From: Candidatus Pacearchaeota archaeon
GTDB lineage: Archaea; Nanobdellota; Nanobdellia; Pacearchaeales; GW2011-AR1
Direction: 5' to 3'
Assembly (NCBI GenBank): GCA_017608705.1
Contig: JAFCFJ010000004.1
Span: 1-54,757 of the forward strand
DNA length: 54,757 bases
Below, piece by piece: positions 19,889 through 30,664 of this stretch; position 1 is the first letter of the stretch, and each line of letters opens with the position of its first letter. The position numbers were made by a program, and so were the translations under genes. The notes under the pieces are model-generated. The model ran no database searches. It had not been told where the DNA came from and worked only from the letters and a program-made list of their open reading frames with translations.

Positions 19889-20851
19889 ATGGCAGCTGTG
19901 CCAAAGTGGAGTGCTACCAAGATAAAGATAGCAAGCGAGTGCTTACAGAAATATAAGCTTATTTATGTTGATAAAATAAAACCGGTGACGAAAGCTGACA
20001 TAGCTCTTGGGCTTTTTCTCCATAGGGCAATAGAGAAGATATTCAAAGATGGTAAGCTAAGATACAAAAGTGCCGAGAGCTATGCGAATGCTATGGGCGC
20101 ACAATGGGTAGTAACTGTTGTAAAGCCGGGGATGATTCAGGGAAGAAAAATTGAATGGAAGGATGACAAGGAACCGTGGATATTAAAGCATAAAATAAAG
20201 GAGATTTGTAAAAATATTCATGAGAGATACGCGAGGGAATATGAAGAAGGTATTATGCCTCTTGCTCAAGAAGTGCATTTCGAGTTTGAATTTGGGGGCA
20301 GACGTTTTGAGGGCTATATCGATGAGATCAGGCCTCAAGCAACGATACGGGACCATAAATCAACAGAATTCGTGCCAAATGAAATAGCACTTGAATATGA
20401 TCCACAGTTTACACTTTACGCCCTTGCTATAGCAGTGATTTGTTGCCATAACAGTGAATTTGCACAAGTAGTAGGTGTAAGCGAAAGGAATAATACGAAA
20501 CCCTTAGATTTACTTGAAATAATAAATCTAGAATACTACAGTTTGCAAGATAACGAAGTGATCAATGTTGCGAGGAGAACACCAAAACATTATCATGCCT
20601 TAGTTGACATGCTCCAGGGCTTGGAGAAAAATATTATCGATGGAAATTTTTATCCAAGATATGGTTCGCATTGCAAATATTGTCAGGTTGCTCATGCATG
20701 CCTGCCACGTCAGCAAGAATATGAGAAGCAAATCTTTCTCTACGATATTCCGGTGCTAGGCACAAGGAATAAAGAGCCAGGAGAAAAACAGCTGAGACTG
20801 AAGTTTCCAAGGAAGAAAGCCAAGAGAGCGGGAGAGAAAGTTAGGGCTTAG
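19889..20851 (+). CDS. PD-(D/E)XK nuclease with Fe-S cysteines (Cas4/RecB-like)
   Basis: A 320-aa RecB-family nuclease. The core motif runs from FEGYIDEIRP to the D-x-K motif RDHKS (about 152), followed by a QxxxYALA helix. One Cys near the N-terminus (Cys18) and a CxxCxxxxxC group at the end (CKYCQVAHAC, about 260-269) are spaced like the four Cys that hold a [4Fe-4S] cluster in Cas4 and AddB nucleases. No cas genes are nearby, so a repair or DNA-end-processing role is more likely than CRISPR adaptation. Its 3' end overlaps the convergent thiolase gene by 11 nt. Confidence 0.82.
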   Translation: MAAVPKWSATKIKIASECLQKYKLIYVDKIKPVTKADIALGLFLHRAIEKIFKDGKLRYKSAESYANAMGAQWVVTVVKPGMIQGRKIEWKDDKEPWILKHKIKEICKNIHERYAREYEEGIMPLAQEVHFEFEFGGRRFEGYIDEIRPQATIRDHKSTEFVPNEIALEYDPQFTLYALAIAVICCHNSEFAQVVGVSERNNTKPLDLLEIINLEYYSLQDNEVINVARRTPKHYHALVDMLQGLEKNIIDGNFYPRYGSHCKYCQVAHACLPRQQEYEKQIFLYDIPVLGTRNKEPGEKQLRLKFPRKKAKRAGEKVRA

Positions 20852-21701
20852 CATGCGGGAATGCAATTCCAAGTAGCTCGCACGCCTTACATATCTCGCG
20901 TCTTGATGGCTCGCCACATTTCTTACAATATCTTAGCTTTTCTATCCTGTCGCTCAGCTTATTTCTCATTTTTTCTATCAGCTTGAGGTTATTCATAACA
21001 ATGTTAAGCTTCTTTTCCTTGCTCATACCACTCAAGAATTTTCGCGCTTCTAGCCTGTAGCTCTCAAGCAAGCATGGACATTTTTCATACACCACAGGCA
21101 GTTTCAGCATTTTGGTATAGCGTGTTGTTTCCTTGTTTGTTACAAAGTAAAGTGGTTTTATTCTCGGAACAAATTTTTTATCACGTATTATGCCCACCAA
21201 AGGCCCGGATGTTAAACTCAGCATAGGGCTACCCTTGAAAAAATTGATCAGGGCAGTCTCTGCTTCATCATCAAGATTGTGGCCAGTAGCGAGCTTGTCA
21301 GCCTTCATCTTTCTCGCTTCTCTATTTATCACCCACTTCTTGACTATACCACAGACAGCACAGTTATTCAGCCTGAGCTTTGACTGGACACCAAGTCTTA
21401 TATAGCACATTCTGGCACCAAAGTGCTCTACCATCTTATAAACCCTTAGCTTTATACCATAGTCTTGACAAAACTGCTTTACAGCGTGAAAACATTTTTC
21501 GCTATACTTACCAAGCCCAAGATCTATATGGAATGCTTTCACTTCATAGCCAAATTTCTCGAGAAGATATGCTACTGTTGTCGAATCCTTACCGCCAGAC
21601 ATAGCCACTACAACGCTCTCATTTTTACTAAGCAAGCCATACTTCTTTATTGTTTCCTTCACTGTATTCTCAAACTTTACAAGAAATCTTTCTTTTTTCA
21701 T
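20841..21701 (-). CDS. tRNA 2-thiolase of the TtuA/Ncs6 family, lacking the N-terminal zinc finger
   Basis: ATP-dependent enzyme that activates a tRNA uridine for 2-thiolation. The PP-loop SGGKDS (about 35-40), the CAVCG motif, the LATGHNLDDEAET helix, the VPRIKPL segment, the second catalytic-type Cys region (YEKCPCL) and a C-terminal zinc finger (CKKC...CKAC) are present. The N-terminal CxxC...CxxC finger usual in this family is absent: the protein begins shortly before the helix leading to the PP-loop. The start at ATG 21701 is preferred over the TTG at 21710. It is last in the isc operon, which can supply sulfur. Whether it modifies U34 or U54 is not decidable here. Confidence 0.87.
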   Translation of the reverse strand: MKKERFLVKFENTVKETIKKYGLLSKNESVVVAMSGGKDSTTVAYLLEKFGYEVKAFHIDLGLGKYSEKCFHAVKQFCQDYGIKLRVYKMVEHFGARMCYIRLGVQSKLRLNNCAVCGIVKKWVINREARKMKADKLATGHNLDDEAETALINFFKGSPMLSLTSGPLVGIIRDKKFVPRIKPLYFVTNKETTRYTKMLKLPVVYEKCPCLLESYRLEARKFLSGMSKEKKLNIVMNNLKLIEKMRNKLSDRIEKLRYCKKCGEPSRREICKACELLGIAFPHAKP

Positions 21702-21706
21702 TTTCT

Positions 21707-21979
21707 TCAATCATTATGCTTCTTTTCTCTATTTACAGCATCCTTACCCAAATTTTGAATAAAGAATATCTTCTTGTGGCCATGGACAAGCTTCTCCAGT
21801 TCGCTGAGCTCTTTTACAAAACCAGTTGTTTCCAGCTCTACTTTTTCACCTCTCGCGATTGCTTCTTCCATTAGCTCCTTCACCTGCTCTATGCCAAGGG
21901 CATAAGCATAGCCACCGTTTTTATAATCAATTCGGCAATATAGCTTGCCTTCATAAATTTGTATTGGTTTGATTTTCAT
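21707..21979 (-). CDS. Small unknown protein in the isc operon
   Basis: Not recognised. A 90-aa soluble protein (KIKPIQIYEGKLYC start, helical middle KELMEEAIARGEK). Its start codon lies inside the end of iscU, overlapping it by 29 nt in another frame, and its stop lies 5 nt before the thiolase ATG, so it is surely translated with these genes. It contains a single Cys. A role in sulfur transfer or tRNA thiolation is suggested only by position. Confidence 0.7.
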   Translation of the reverse strand: MKIKPIQIYEGKLYCRIDYKNGGYAYALGIEQVKELMEEAIARGEKVELETTGFVKELSELEKLVHGHKKIFFIQNLGKDAVNREKKHND

Positions 21980-22394
21980 CTTTTCTCCTTTTTGCTCTTA
22001 CCTTTTTCTTCTTTTCATAATCTTCTATCGCTTTGTGCAACGCATCAGCTGCAAGATTAGAGCAATGCATCTTTATTGGCGGCAAGCCATCGAGCGCGTC
22101 AGCAATATCTTTCCTGCTTAATTTTTTTGCCTCCTTCAGCGTTTTACCTTTTGCTAATTCTGTAAGCATGCTGCTCGTGGCTATTGCTGCGGCACAGCCC
22201 ATTGTCTGGAATTTTATATCCTTGATATATTCCTCTTCGCCTTTTTTTGTTTTTCTCTTTCCTACCTTGATATAGACCCACATTATATCACCGCACACAG
22301 GATTTCCAACTTTTCCTGTGCCATCAGCATTCTTGATCTCGCCAACATTTTTTGGATTGGTGAAGTGCTCTATTACCTTCTTGCTATATTTCAT
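21951..22394 (-). CDS. iscU: Fe-S cluster scaffold protein IscU/NifU-like
   Basis: Scaffold on which Fe-S clusters are assembled from IscS-derived sulfur, 147 aa. The three conserved ligands are present: Cys34 in PVCGD (with Asp36), Cys67 in MGCAAAIA and Cys111 in MHCSNLA. The C-terminal 20 residues are a charged extension. Its ATG overlaps the stop of the DUF1858 gene (ATGA). Confidence 0.95.
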   Translation of the reverse strand: MKYSKKVIEHFTNPKNVGEIKNADGTGKVGNPVCGDIMWVYIKVGKRKTKKGEEEYIKDIKFQTMGCAAAIATSSMLTELAKGKTLKEAKKLSRKDIADALDGLPPIKMHCSNLAADALHKAIEDYEKKKKVRAKRRKDENQTNTNL

Positions 22395-22642
22395 TTTTTC
22401 TCTTTTAGTTTTTTATTCAGTAATTTCACAATCTCGTCAGGATCAAGGCCGTGAGCAATACAGCCCTGCTCTATTGTTTCTTGCATTGCCATCGGACAGC
22501 CTACACAAGCCATACCTTTTTCCATCAGGAGCATTGCCGCTTCCGGATATTTCTGCAAGAGTTCCTGGAATGTCATTTCTTTGCTTATTCTTTCTTTCTC
22601 AAATTTCTTAGCACTGTTCTTGTTTTTCATTTGGTCCTTCAT
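22391..22642 (-). CDS. DUF1858 redox-disulfide domain protein
   Basis: An 83-aa DUF1858 protein, a helical domain with a CxxC pair (ACVGCPMA, Cys46 and Cys49) and family features KYPEAAMLLMEKGM and HGLDPDEIVKLLN. Members often accompany redox or hybrid-cluster proteins. It lies between iscS and iscU with ATGA overlaps on both sides, suggesting a part in sulfur or electron transfer in cluster assembly. Confidence 0.85.
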   Translation of the reverse strand: MKDQMKNKNSAKKFEKERISKEMTFQELLQKYPEAAMLLMEKGMACVGCPMAMQETIEQGCIAHGLDPDEIVKLLNKKLKEKK

Positions 22643-23796
22643 TTAAACGGGCTTATTCTCCTTAGTTTTCTTACGCTCTCTTCTATGGCAGAGGTAACGT
22701 ATTCTATCTCGTCTTCGGTAAGAGGATAAGCCAGAGTAAGTCTCAGAGAACCATGTGCCTCAAGCTCGCTCAGACCGAGAGCAAGCAACACATGACTGGG
22801 CTCGAGTTTGTGCGAAGAACATGCAGAGCCAGTAGAGCAAGCTATGCCTTTTTTATCAAGCATCAATACAAGAGCTTCGCCCTCTATACCTTGAAACGAC
22901 ACATTGATGTTGTTGAAAATCCGTTTTTCTTTGCTTCCATTAAGCCTTACACCTTGTATCTCGAGCAGCCTCTCTAGTAGTTTGTTTCTTGTCTTCTCTA
23001 TGTTTTTGTATTCATTGCCAGAAATTTTTTTAACAGCGATTTCACTTGCCTTTCCTAAGCCCACTATTCCTGCTGTATTTTCTGTACCGCTCCTTAGCCC
23101 TTGTTCATGGCCCCCACCACTTAGCAGTGCTTTCAGCTTTACACCATTACGCACATAGAGAGCGCCAACACCTTTCGGTCCGAAAAGCTTGTGCGCGGAT
23201 ATGCTCAACAAATCCACCTTTATTTTTTTCATATCAAGTTTCAATTTTCCAAAACTTTGGACAGCATCTGTATGGAAATAAATGCCATGCTCTTGGCATA
23301 TTTTTGCAATCTTCTTTATGGGCTGTATCGTGCCAATTTCGTTATTAATATGCATTATGGAAACAAGCAGAGTTTCATCTCGTATCTCTTGCTCTAGCCT
23401 GTCAAGATCTACAATTCCTTCACTATCTACAGGTATGTAACTCACATCATATCCTTGCTTTTCTAGTGTTTTGCATGTTTCAAGCACAGCAGGATGCTCT
23501 ATTGCGCTCGTTATTATGTGCTTCTTGTCAGGATGTGCAAGCGCTAGCCCTTCTATCGCAAGATTGTCCGCTTCTGTTCCGCCACTTGTAAATACTATCT
23601 CCTCGGGCTTAGCATTTATCACGCCGGCAACTTTTTCTCTTGCCTTCTCAATAGCTTCTCTTGCCTCACGCCCAAAAGCATGCAAGCTTGATGCATTACC
23701 AAAACGTTCGCTAAAATACGGCAGCATTGCATCTAGCACCTCTCTCGCTACAGGCGTTGTTGCAGCCGCATCCAGATAGATTTTTTTAGTTTTCAT
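22639..23796 (-). CDS. iscS: Cysteine desulfurase IscS/NifS
   Basis: PLP enzyme releasing sulfur from cysteine as persulfide, 385 aa. The PLP lysine is in SAHKLFGPKG (about 203), the PLP-binding histidine region in SAIEHPAV, and the mobile catalytic Cys loop in ACSTGSACSS (about 320-325). It is the first enzyme gene of the operon, 40 nt after the HTH regulator. It probably feeds both IscU and the tRNA thiolases. Confidence 0.96.
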   Translation of the reverse strand: MKTKKIYLDAAATTPVAREVLDAMLPYFSERFGNASSLHAFGREAREAIEKAREKVAGVINAKPEEIVFTSGGTEADNLAIEGLALAHPDKKHIITSAIEHPAVLETCKTLEKQGYDVSYIPVDSEGIVDLDRLEQEIRDETLLVSIMHINNEIGTIQPIKKIAKICQEHGIYFHTDAVQSFGKLKLDMKKIKVDLLSISAHKLFGPKGVGALYVRNGVKLKALLSGGGHEQGLRSGTENTAGIVGLGKASEIAVKKISGNEYKNIEKTRNKLLERLLEIQGVRLNGSKEKRIFNNINVSFQGIEGEALVLMLDKKGIACSTGSACSSHKLEPSHVLLALGLSELEAHGSLRLTLAYPLTEDEIEYVTSAIEESVRKLRRISPFK

Positions 23797-28498: not shown

Positions 28499-28620
28499 AT
28501 GAACTATATGGGAGCAAGGTTGTGTTTGAACTATTTCTATCTAGCCAAGCTCCCAAAATTCACAGTTAAGTGTTTTGTCCTGTAAATCTCTTTTTGTGTT
28601 CCCGGTTCAGGGCATTTTTT
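28499..28620 (+). other. Leaderless 28-codon upstream ORF or small structured RNA
   Basis: The TATA box AAATATTTAAACC (28466-28478) places a transcription start at about 28498, exactly at an ATG that opens a 28-codon ORF ending at a TAA near 28588, in frame with the downstream zinc-ribbon gene. The same RNA can form a hairpin GGGAGC...GCTCCC (about 28509-28556) and has a T6 tract near 28615. It could be an upstream ORF, an attenuator-like leader or a small RNA. No known RNA family is recognised. Confidence 0.35.
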
Positions 28621-28633
28621 GTTTGATGATAAA

Positions 28634-28993
28634 ATGGTGCGGGAAAATTATTGGATGTGTGTTGAATGTGATGAGGCTATTTATAATCCTATTTGTCCAT
28701 CATGTCTTGTAAAAGAGATTTCTGTATGGCTCAAGAAATATCCACGACTATGGCGAAAGGTGATAATAGAGTTGAACAGGTATATAACTCAAGCCCTTAG
28801 ATTATACAAATCGGCGACTAAGTGCGTGGCATGTGGGAATAATACAACATTCCTTTGTCCTTACTGCTTTACCGCTTACACATTACAAGTTTTAAAAAAC
28901 AACAAGGCAAGTAAGATTGTATTGCGTGAATTCGTAGAATTATTCAATTTTGATTTTGAACATACGAATGAGGAATTCTGGCCGAATAACTAA
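28634..28993 (+). CDS. Double zinc-ribbon protein, unknown function
   Basis: A 119-aa protein with two zinc-binding Cys sets: CVEC...CPSC near the N-terminus and CVAC...CPYC in the middle. A helical segment (KEISVWLKKYPRLWRKVIIELNR) lies between them. The likely start is the ATG at 28634 (the listed TTG is 15 nt earlier). It is followed by a PP-loop thiolase 31 nt downstream and an Ncs2-like protein, so a tRNA-modification partner role is possible but unproven. Confidence 0.75.
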   Translation: MVRENYWMCVECDEAIYNPICPSCLVKEISVWLKKYPRLWRKVIIELNRYITQALRLYKSATKCVACGNNTTFLCPYCFTAYTLQVLKNNKASKIVLREFVELFNFDFEHTNEEFWPNN

Positions 28994-29024: not shown

Positions 29025-29999
29025 ATGGTGAAAAAAACAGCTAAGGCATTGGTATTATTTTCAGGCGGTCTGGATAGCAGGCTTGCTGTCAAGCTATTGC
29101 AGGAGCAAGGCATTAAGGTAGTAGGGATATTTTTCGTATTGCCTTTCGGCGGTGGCTGCTGTAATGATAGATTTTGCGCCTTCAAATTTTCACAAGAGCA
29201 AGGATTCAAGCTTTACATCGTGGATTGTAGCAAGGGCAGGAATTTCCAAGAATATCTTGCTATTATACGCAAGCCAAAATATCCACGCGGTACAGGCATG
29301 AATCCTTGCATAGATTGTCGTGTATTTATGCTTAAAAAAGCTAAACAGCTTGCCAAAAAGCTTAATGCAGATTTTATCGCTACGGGCGAGGTTCTTGGCG
29401 AGAGGCCTCTTTCGCAAAATATGAAAGCTTTACGAATTGTTGAAAAAGAAGCTGGACTCGAGGGCAAACTTCTTAGACCGCTATCAGCAAAATTGCTTCC
29501 GCCAACAGAGGCAGAAAAGCAGGGGCTTGTAGAAAGAGAGAAACTTCTGGATATAAAAGGGAGACAGCGCAAGAAACAAATTGAACTTGCCAAGAGATAC
29601 AGAATTGACTTTCCGAATCCCGCAGGCGGTTGTTTGCTCTGTGACAAAGCTTTTTCATTACGTCTTGCAGACTTATTCAAACATAGAAAAAAAATAACGC
29701 CGAGAGACATCGAGCTGTTGAAGATTGGCAGGCATTTTCGTGTTCATGGCAAGATTGTGCTTGGCAGGAATAAGCAAGAGAATGACATGCTTGAAATGCT
29801 CAAGGGTGATAATATTTTGATCGTACCAGAGAAGCCCGGACCAAGCGCACTGGTTAAGGATAAGCGTGATGTAGAAATTGCCAAAGAAATGATAGCTGCT
29901 TATTCCAAGTATGGCAAAGGAAGAGAAAAATTTGATAAATACAGGATTGATCTGGTGGCTGAAACCAAGAACAAAGGCAAAGGCGAGCGGGAAAGGTAA
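29025..29999 (+). CDS. PP-loop tRNA thiolase, ThiI/MnmA-like
   Basis: ATP-pyrophosphatase of 324 aa. The PP-loop is LFSGGLDSRL (about 10-19). Cys residues occur as GGGCC and FCAF, then CIDC in a MNPCIDCRVFM motif and CLLC in PAGGCLLCDKAFS. FIATGEVLGERP resembles the tRNA-binding/adenylation motif of ThiI and MnmA relatives. There is no N-terminal THUMP domain as in classical ThiI. The cysteines could hold an Fe-S cluster, as in other Fe-S-dependent tRNA thiolases (inference). It begins a unit with the Ncs2-like gene 11 nt downstream. The exact target uridine (s4U8 or s2U) is unknown. Confidence 0.78.
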   Translation: MVKKTAKALVLFSGGLDSRLAVKLLQEQGIKVVGIFFVLPFGGGCCNDRFCAFKFSQEQGFKLYIVDCSKGRNFQEYLAIIRKPKYPRGTGMNPCIDCRVFMLKKAKQLAKKLNADFIATGEVLGERPLSQNMKALRIVEKEAGLEGKLLRPLSAKLLPPTEAEKQGLVEREKLLDIKGRQRKKQIELAKRYRIDFPNPAGGCLLCDKAFSLRLADLFKHRKKITPRDIELLKIGRHFRVHGKIVLGRNKQENDMLEMLKGDNILIVPEKPGPSALVKDKRDVEIAKEMIAAYSKYGKGREKFDKYRIDLVAETKNKGKGERER

Positions 30000-30010
30000 C
30001 GAGATGAAAA

Positions 30011-30664
30011 ATGTGCAAAAGATGTGAGATGTTGCCTGTATGGGAATTCACGAACAAGCGCAAGCTCTGTGCAAGCTGCTTTTCACGCTATTTCGAGAAA
30101 AAATTTCTTAACACAGTAAGAAAATTCAAACTATTTTCAGCTTGCGATAAAGTACAAGTTAAGTGTGAAAGTGAAGATAAACTTTCAGAAATAAAAAGGC
30201 AGACACTGAGCTTTGTCTTGGAAAAAATGAGAGCAAAACTTAACATAGCACTTGTCAAGAGAAATGCCACTAAAAAAGCAAGCGTGGATAGTGTTGACAA
30301 TATTGCCTCTTGCCTCCTGGATTGCTTTGTTAATAAAAGGCTGAGGAACATGAAAAGATGTGGACCAATTAGGAAGGAAAAAATAGGCAAAAGATGGATT
30401 ACTATTGTTAAGCCTTTTTACCTATTTCTTGATGCTGAAATCCTGCTGTATGCTAAAATAAAAAAAATTGTGAAGCCAAATATTCTTCAACAATGGCCTT
30501 TCAGGCCAGGAGAAAGTTTTATGCTCTCTGGATTACGTGAAGTGGGGGAAAGCAAGAACAAGATGAGAAAAAAACTTCTATTATTCCTCGATGAGCTTGA
30601 GAAAAAACACCCAGAAGTTAAGCATGCGATTGTGCAGGGGTATCTCAGTGTTTACGTTACATAG
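30011..30664 (+). CDS. Ncs6/TtuA relative without PP-loop (Ncs2-like)
   Basis: A 217-aa protein. It opens with the zinc finger typical of TtuA/Ncs6 (Cys2, Cys5, Cys20, Cys23) followed by the FEKKFLNTVRKFKLF helix that normally leads into the PP-loop. The SGGKDS motif is missing (SACDKVQVKCES instead), as are the catalytic Cys pair and the C-terminal zinc finger. Later regions keep the family pattern: IASCLLDCFVNKRL at the LDDEAQT helix position, TIVKPFYLFLDAEILLYAKIKKI at the RIKPLR...EVALYA position, and LLLFLDELEKKHPEVKHAI near the end. This matches the idea of a catalytically dead partner like eukaryotic Ncs2/CTU2. Confidence is good for family, moderate for role. Confidence 0.62.
   Translation: MCKRCEMLPVWEFTNKRKLCASCFSRYFEKKFLNTVRKFKLFSACDKVQVKCESEDKLSEIKRQTLSFVLEKMRAKLNIALVKRNATKKASVDSVDNIASCLLDCFVNKRLRNMKRCGPIRKEKIGKRWITIVKPFYLFLDAEILLYAKIKKIVKPNILQQWPFRPGESFMLSGLREVGESKNKMRKKLLLFLDELEKKHPEVKHAIVQGYLSVYVT

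Follow-up and report, generated by a model that had tools for sequence, protein, structure and literature searches.

A catalytically dead TtuA/NcsA paralogue is the probable partner of a finger-less tRNA thiolase in DPANN archaea

The window, i.e. the whole stretch of 54,757 nucleotides that was analysed, is contig C18 of a 35-contig, 0.6-Mb MAG. It carries two genes of the TtuA/NcsA family, which lie in separate operons about 9 kb apart. The relevant features are listed below, with the evidence in brackets.

30011-30664, plus strand: predicted dead TtuA/NcsA-like subunit, 217 aa, ATG start (ORF, NCBIfam, phmmer, AF2/Foldseek)
30011-30082, plus strand: N-terminal finger of the dead subunit (C2, C5, C20, C23), then a long first helix, residues 21-38 (sequence, predicted secondary structure, family alignment)
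30413-30454, plus strand: best-conserved motif in the core of the dead family, P-[LF]-Y-L-F-L-D-x-E-x-L-L-Y-A, which corresponds to KPLY...E..YA in TtuA (invariant or near-invariant columns)
30560-30655, plus strand: C-terminal helices of the dead subunit (LEKKHPEVKHAIVQGYL), equivalent to the TtuA helices preceding the C-terminal finger (TIGR00269 match at residues 181-211, alignment, secondary structure)
29025-29999, plus strand: ThiI/MnmA-like PP-loop protein with a C-terminal NFACT-R_2 domain, 11 bases upstream of the dead gene and on the same strand
20841-21710, minus strand: predicted active TtuA/NcsA-family thiolase without an N-terminal finger, 289 aa; TTG start, with an ATG 3 codons later
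21582-21599, minus strand: PP-loop SGGKDS of the active subunit (sequence)
21351-21362, minus strand: iron-sulfur cysteines 1 and 2 of the active subunit (C117-x2-C120); the third, C211, is at 21078-21080
20880-20927, minus strand: C-terminal zinc finger of the active subunit, C262, C265, C274, C277 (PF16503 and sequence)
21707-23796, minus strand: nifS, DUF1858, nifU and a 90-aa ORF, a series of overlapping genes with the active thiolase gene as the last (sulfur/Fe-S supply context)

Just upstream of the ThiI/NFACT-R_2 gene, at 28619-28993 on the plus strand, a 124-aa protein with two CxxC...CxxC ribbons is encoded; it matched no family above the cut-off. Of 200 order genomes surveyed, 74 encode a protein of the 29025 type, including some that have no TtuA at all, and such a protein is probably another tRNA-thiolation enzyme.

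The product of the 30011-30664 frame starts with MCKRCEMLPVWEFTNKRKLCASCFSRYFEKKFLNTVRKFKL and ends with LEKKHPEVKHAIVQGYLSVYVT. In a phmmer search of the PDB it matched PH0300/TtuA over residues 15-57 and, separately, over residues 93-181 (E 3e-6), and among NCBIfam models it matched TtuA (2.5e-8) and TIGR00269 (8e-4). These matches indicate that its homology exceeds the finger. Its 21 dead-family relatives align over the full length; NF049949 is matched by 20 of the 21 dead-family members, with no Pfam or NCBIfam model above the cut-off for the family. Between the two matched stretches, the Rossmann part is shorter by approximately 90 residues, and the PP-loop and the cluster cysteines are gone with it; the frame ends where the C-terminal finger would begin. 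Neither SGGKDS, nor the CxxC...C cluster ligands, nor a C-terminal finger was found in this protein or in 59 short relatives. Catalytic cysteines are present in 63 of 63 finger-less active enzymes, versus none of 61 dead proteins. The initial annotation had claimed exactly this combination, an N-terminal zinc finger and late helices retained and everything catalytic lost, and it was correct on both counts: C2, C5, C20 and C23 and the TIGR00269 match mark what is kept, and the losses hold throughout the short relatives.

A structure of the dead protein was predicted by AF2 from an alignment of 42 dead-family rows only (pLDDT 90.7, pTM 0.86). When the model was compared to the PDB with Foldseek, the first 17 matches were all TtuA/NcsA, with E-values down to 3e-9 and approximately 283 alignment columns. 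Since the alignment contained no active enzyme, this result provides independent support for homology across the frame. Homology therefore spans the whole TtuA/NcsA frame by sequence and by predicted fold, which was the point on which the initial annotation had made its proposal depend. Judged by both, the 30011 protein is a catalytically dead TtuA/NcsA paralogue.

The short dead form (161-237 aa) occurs in about 57 of the 200 order genomes and in approximately 39 genera. Seven residues, V10, F28, K31, P135, E143, L146 and Y147, are invariant in 42 dead-family sequences, and the dN/dS ratio between close pairs is ca. 0.06-0.2, a rough figure, as dS is close to 1 or higher. Purifying selection acts on the dead gene. 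All four N-finger cysteines are kept in only 36 of 59 dead proteins, and zinc itself is thus dispensable in the family. In several lineages the N-terminal finger domain is retained while its zinc cysteines are lost, and this is seen in active as well as dead proteins (L026, L027, L031, L032, L034, L015, L017, L029 and others). In one genome (G348), a dead-family frame (L344, 700-1860) continues into an M23-peptidase-like stretch, for a total of 387 codons, a possible fusion or assembly effect.

The 20841 protein matches TtuA/NcsA over its whole length and contains SGGKDS, C117/C120/C211 and the C-terminal finger (model pLDDT 90.4). Nothing equivalent to the N-finger was found in its sequence, or upstream of its start; a stop codon lies immediately upstream, so a hidden N-finger is not possible. 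That the active enzyme lacks this finger, as the initial annotation had it, was thus borne out. A second active paralogue is encoded in the same genome (contig C5, L002 1432-2355, 307 aa). It also has no N-finger, and carries a lysine-rich tail in its place. Redundancy through a second, finger-bearing TtuA elsewhere in the genome was considered and rejected, since this only other copy is finger-less as well. The C5 protein belongs to a distant, long-branch subfamily (114 bits versus 230-350 for true orthologues), and proteins of its type were not found in the other dead-gene carriers of the order; it is therefore not part of the conserved pair.

Two sequence traits accompany the finger-less state. 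A fourth cysteine (CPC for CPx) stands beside the third cluster ligand in 56 of 63 finger-less active enzymes, versus 2 of 43 finger-bearing ones, and almost all finger-less enzymes have L/S in place of the pocket residues E88/R94. An assignment of the target nucleotide (U34 or U54) from the pocket was attempted and abandoned: L/S at positions 88/94 is TtuA-like, yet R241 is NcsA-like and the position in the tree is nearer to NcsA. The active gene closes the overlapping nifS-DUF1858-nifU-orf90-thiolase run at 20841-23796 (minus strand). The 1.5 kb next to the finger-less gene was examined at 40 other loci, and relatives of NifS, NifU or DUF1858 were present there in about one third of them. 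This gene order suggests a cysteine desulfurase/scaffold route (NifS/NifU) for both sulfur and the cluster.

To monitor how the two genes are distributed, 200 genomes of the order (Pacearchaeota-type DPANN) were scanned for the dead and active families, and the N-termini of active matches were read directly. Both the dead gene and a finger-less active gene were present in 54 genomes, the dead gene only in 5, the finger-less gene only in 5, and neither in 136 (phi 0.88; a p-value for this co-occurrence is inflated by genome relatedness). When counted by genera, the two agree in 37 of 41. The dead gene was found in none of the 12 order genomes whose active enzyme has an N-finger domain, in some of them with the cysteines lost. 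Most exceptions to the pairing are fragmented MAGs, 59-87% complete, and all dead-only cases are incomplete. A finger-less enzyme without a detectable partner was seen in four incomplete MAGs and in G036 (one 600-kb contig, 77% complete), where the dead partner was not detected after a repeat search. About two thirds of the order genomes contain neither an active nor a dead TtuA/NcsA at the thresholds used, though many of them are more than 85% complete.

The distance matrices of dead and finger-less proteins are correlated with r = 0.905 (over 51 genomes). Partial correlations given each of five neighbouring genes were all positive (0.89, 0.67, 0.58, 0.36 and 0.32), the weakest being those with HtpX (0.36) and cluster 2 (0.32), so part of the distance signal is shared ancestry. 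The dead-gene tree mirrors the finger-less-enzyme tree. The initial annotation had proposed that the two proteins complement each other's defects as a heterodimer. Within the order, complementary defects are the rule, and the same arrangement is seen in three genomes outside it; a heterodimer is strongly supported for this reason. We consider it quite probable that the 30011 protein pairs with the finger-less 20841 enzyme and forms the non-catalytic half of a heterodimer.

Several other explanations were weighed against this one. The 30011 protein might be the tRNA-binding partner of its operon neighbour at 29025 instead of the finger-less TtuA. Both are presumably tRNA-thiolation proteins, and in a comparison of 43 loci most had a 29025 homologue close to the dead gene, as a rule immediately upstream of it and on the same strand. 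The co-occurrence of these two genes, however, is weaker (phi 0.62 against 0.88): 25 genomes have a 29025 homologue but no dead gene, 10 have the dead gene but no such homologue, and the partial distance correlation favours the finger-less TtuA over 29025 (0.67 against 0.36). Moreover, in genome G120 the place next to the NFACT-R_2 gene is taken by a full-length TtuA with its finger, so that ancestry accounts for the position of the dead gene, and we regard a partnership with 29025 as improbable. Equally unlikely in our estimate is a dead protein that acts alone or as its own homodimer, having lost contact with the thiolase and serving as a tRNA-binding chaperone, decoy or regulator. Such a role would fit a small protein that is stable in prediction and keeps the finger and the packing helices, as well as the many genomes outside the order where the active enzyme is complete by itself; but the dead protein is almost never kept without an active TtuA/NcsA, within the order it is absent wherever the active enzyme has its own finger, and its evolution tracks that of the finger-less enzyme.

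That both active enzymes of the window's genome are without the N-finger could mean that 20841 and the C5 paralogue, as two catalytic subunits of different site specificity, share one dead subunit. This is very unlikely, as the C5 protein is distant and long-branched and was not found in other order carriers. The loss of every catalytic feature and about a third of the length could also be read as the decay of an NcsA duplicate into a pseudogene. Open frames in ca. 57 order genomes and at least 75 more in the phylum, a low dN/dS, invariant residues and a confident fold make the chance of this negligible; conservation, selection and fold rule out a pseudogene or an assembly artefact, and conservation across approximately 39 genera together with the dN/dS of ca. 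0.06-0.2 excludes chance. A heterodimer of the dead protein with the finger-less TtuA is the preferred reading.

To survey the phylum, 371 genomes were searched with a profile that included 16 further short dead proteins, read in other families of the class. Members of the dead family were found in at least 75 further genomes, and an active TtuA/NcsA was present in 53 of 57 further carriers checked outside the order, and in most of the first group checked. Of the active enzymes that accompany a dead gene outside the order, about half keep their own N-finger, and in these the proposed complementarity of defects did not hold. Replacing a lost finger therefore cannot be the sole role of the dead protein. 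When presence of the N-finger was compared with that of the pocket pair E88/R94, 25 enzymes had both, 2 had the finger without E/R, and 15 had neither; L351 was scored as finger-less with E/R, but on reading its N-terminus is finger-like. Finger loss goes together with loss of the NcsA pocket pair. The constant feature is thus the active/dead pair; complementary finger loss represents the most extreme version of it and has become fixed in the order to which the window belongs.

Intermediates between a complete enzyme and the short dead form were also found (INTERMEDIATES). L105 (284 aa) and L108 (278 aa) are dead but still full-length: they keep both fingers, contain SGGKNS or SGKNS and have no cluster cysteines, which is essentially the condition of Ncs2. 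L103/L233 (277-codon frame) is a longer remnant, and L099 (208 aa) is short. The genomes of L105, L108 and L099, all outside the order, each have a finger-less active enzyme. The G120 enzyme in the dead gene's slot is catalytically intact, and there is no separate finger-less enzyme in that genome. In trees built by a quick search and with moderate support, the dead proteins form one clade (SH-aLRT 94.9; 87 with phylum members) nested among finger-bearing enzymes, and the finger-less active enzymes of the order form another (97) together with those of G204-G206, the three genomes outside it, with the finger-bearing L123 and L132 as sisters.

The division of labour in the pair may be as follows. 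The 20841 chain would do the chemistry: it has kept the parts for activating the uridine with ATP, together with the cluster and the C-finger. In the 30011 chain the catalytic core has been shed, while the N-finger module, the packing helices and the first helix are left; this chain most likely provides in trans the missing N-terminal tRNA-binding module and one half of the dimer. It would occupy the position of the second protomer, offering its N-finger module and helices to the tRNA. This is the simplest reading in view of what has been published. P. horikoshii TtuA is a homodimer, and the tRNA is likely to lie on a surface made up of its catalytic site and both zinc fingers (PMC3980101). 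In NcsA the zinc domains at the two ends are mobile and may close around the tRNA like a clamp, and a model of human Ctu1/Ctu2 superposes on the archaeal NcsA homodimer (PMC10067955). We infer a physical heterodimer in which the dead chain grips the tRNA and NifS/NifU supply the sulfur. In the best reading of these sequences, an obligate catalytic/dead heterodimer would replace the archaeal homodimer, convergently with Ncs6-Ncs2. A broader statement can be made with somewhat less confidence, though we lean slightly towards it: DPANN archaea may have evolved, independently of eukaryotic Ncs2, phylum-wide tRNA-thiolase pseudoenzymes, on which in part of the phylum the catalytic chain depends for the tRNA-binding module of its N-terminus. 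NcsA's characteristic E/R pair in the uridine pocket is also given up there, so the dead chain may help to set the thiolated uridine.

Archaea are stated to use a single NcsA (PMC10067955), and 2-thiolation in them has been described as the work of one homodimer, the dead partner being regarded as a eukaryotic invention; a candidate archaeal pair is now found. Searches of open-access papers on Ncs2 in archaea and on thiolation in DPANN turned up no previous description of such a dead partner. States from the finger-bearing homodimer type through the full-length dead copy with both fingers to the long and the short remnant are still extant, and a previously unannotated gene family in well over a hundred genomes is now named. 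The eukaryotic Ncs6-Ncs2 complex has resisted purification (PMC10067955), and with small archaeal proteins the role of its dead half becomes testable.

Like the 30011 protein, Ncs2/Tuc2/CTU2, the non-catalytic partner of Ncs6/CTU1, is a paralogue within the family; both have lost the [4Fe-4S] cysteines and are retained alongside an active sister. In this sense the dead protein is Ncs2-like, as the initial annotation had suggested; orthology, on the other hand, was not upheld. The CTU2 profile gave no Pfam match at E <= 1 in any of 21 dead-family members, the protein is smaller and has no C-finger, and there is no sign of common descent beyond the family. On sequence grounds the protein is best called an analogue of Ncs2 rather than a demonstrated orthologue, and the archaeal catalytic/dead thiolase pair apparently evolved independently of Ncs6-Ncs2. 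Eukaryotic Ctu2 keeps its zinc-finger sites and most of the secondary structure and has added insertions, and Ctu1 keeps the N-finger. The DPANN dead chain, in contrast, is 160-240 aa long, without the C-finger and most of the Rossmann core, and its active partner is without the N-finger. Short dead forms keep only the N-finger, unlike Ncs2/CTU2, while the long L105 and L108 keep both. As with Ncs2/CTU2, the dead gene accompanies an active one, in 54 of 59 cases within the order (the rest being incomplete MAGs) and in 53 of 57 outside it.

NcsA of Methanococcus maripaludis and Haloferax volcanii and TtuA of P. horikoshii and T. thermophilus have the same fold and belong to the same family, and 20841 shares their PP-loop, three cysteines and C-finger. 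These enzymes, however, are single-gene homodimers in which each chain has an N-finger, a PP-loop/[4Fe-4S] core and a C-finger, whereas the roles appear to be divided between the chains of the DPANN pair. A homomeric tRNA enzyme has also become a catalytic/non-catalytic pair after duplication in the case of the ADAT2/ADAT3 tRNA deaminase and the eukaryotic m1A58 methyltransferase (PMC10067955; PMC7713142). The folds of those enzymes are unrelated to that of TtuA/NcsA and both are eukaryotic, while the DPANN case is archaeal and its intermediates are visible.
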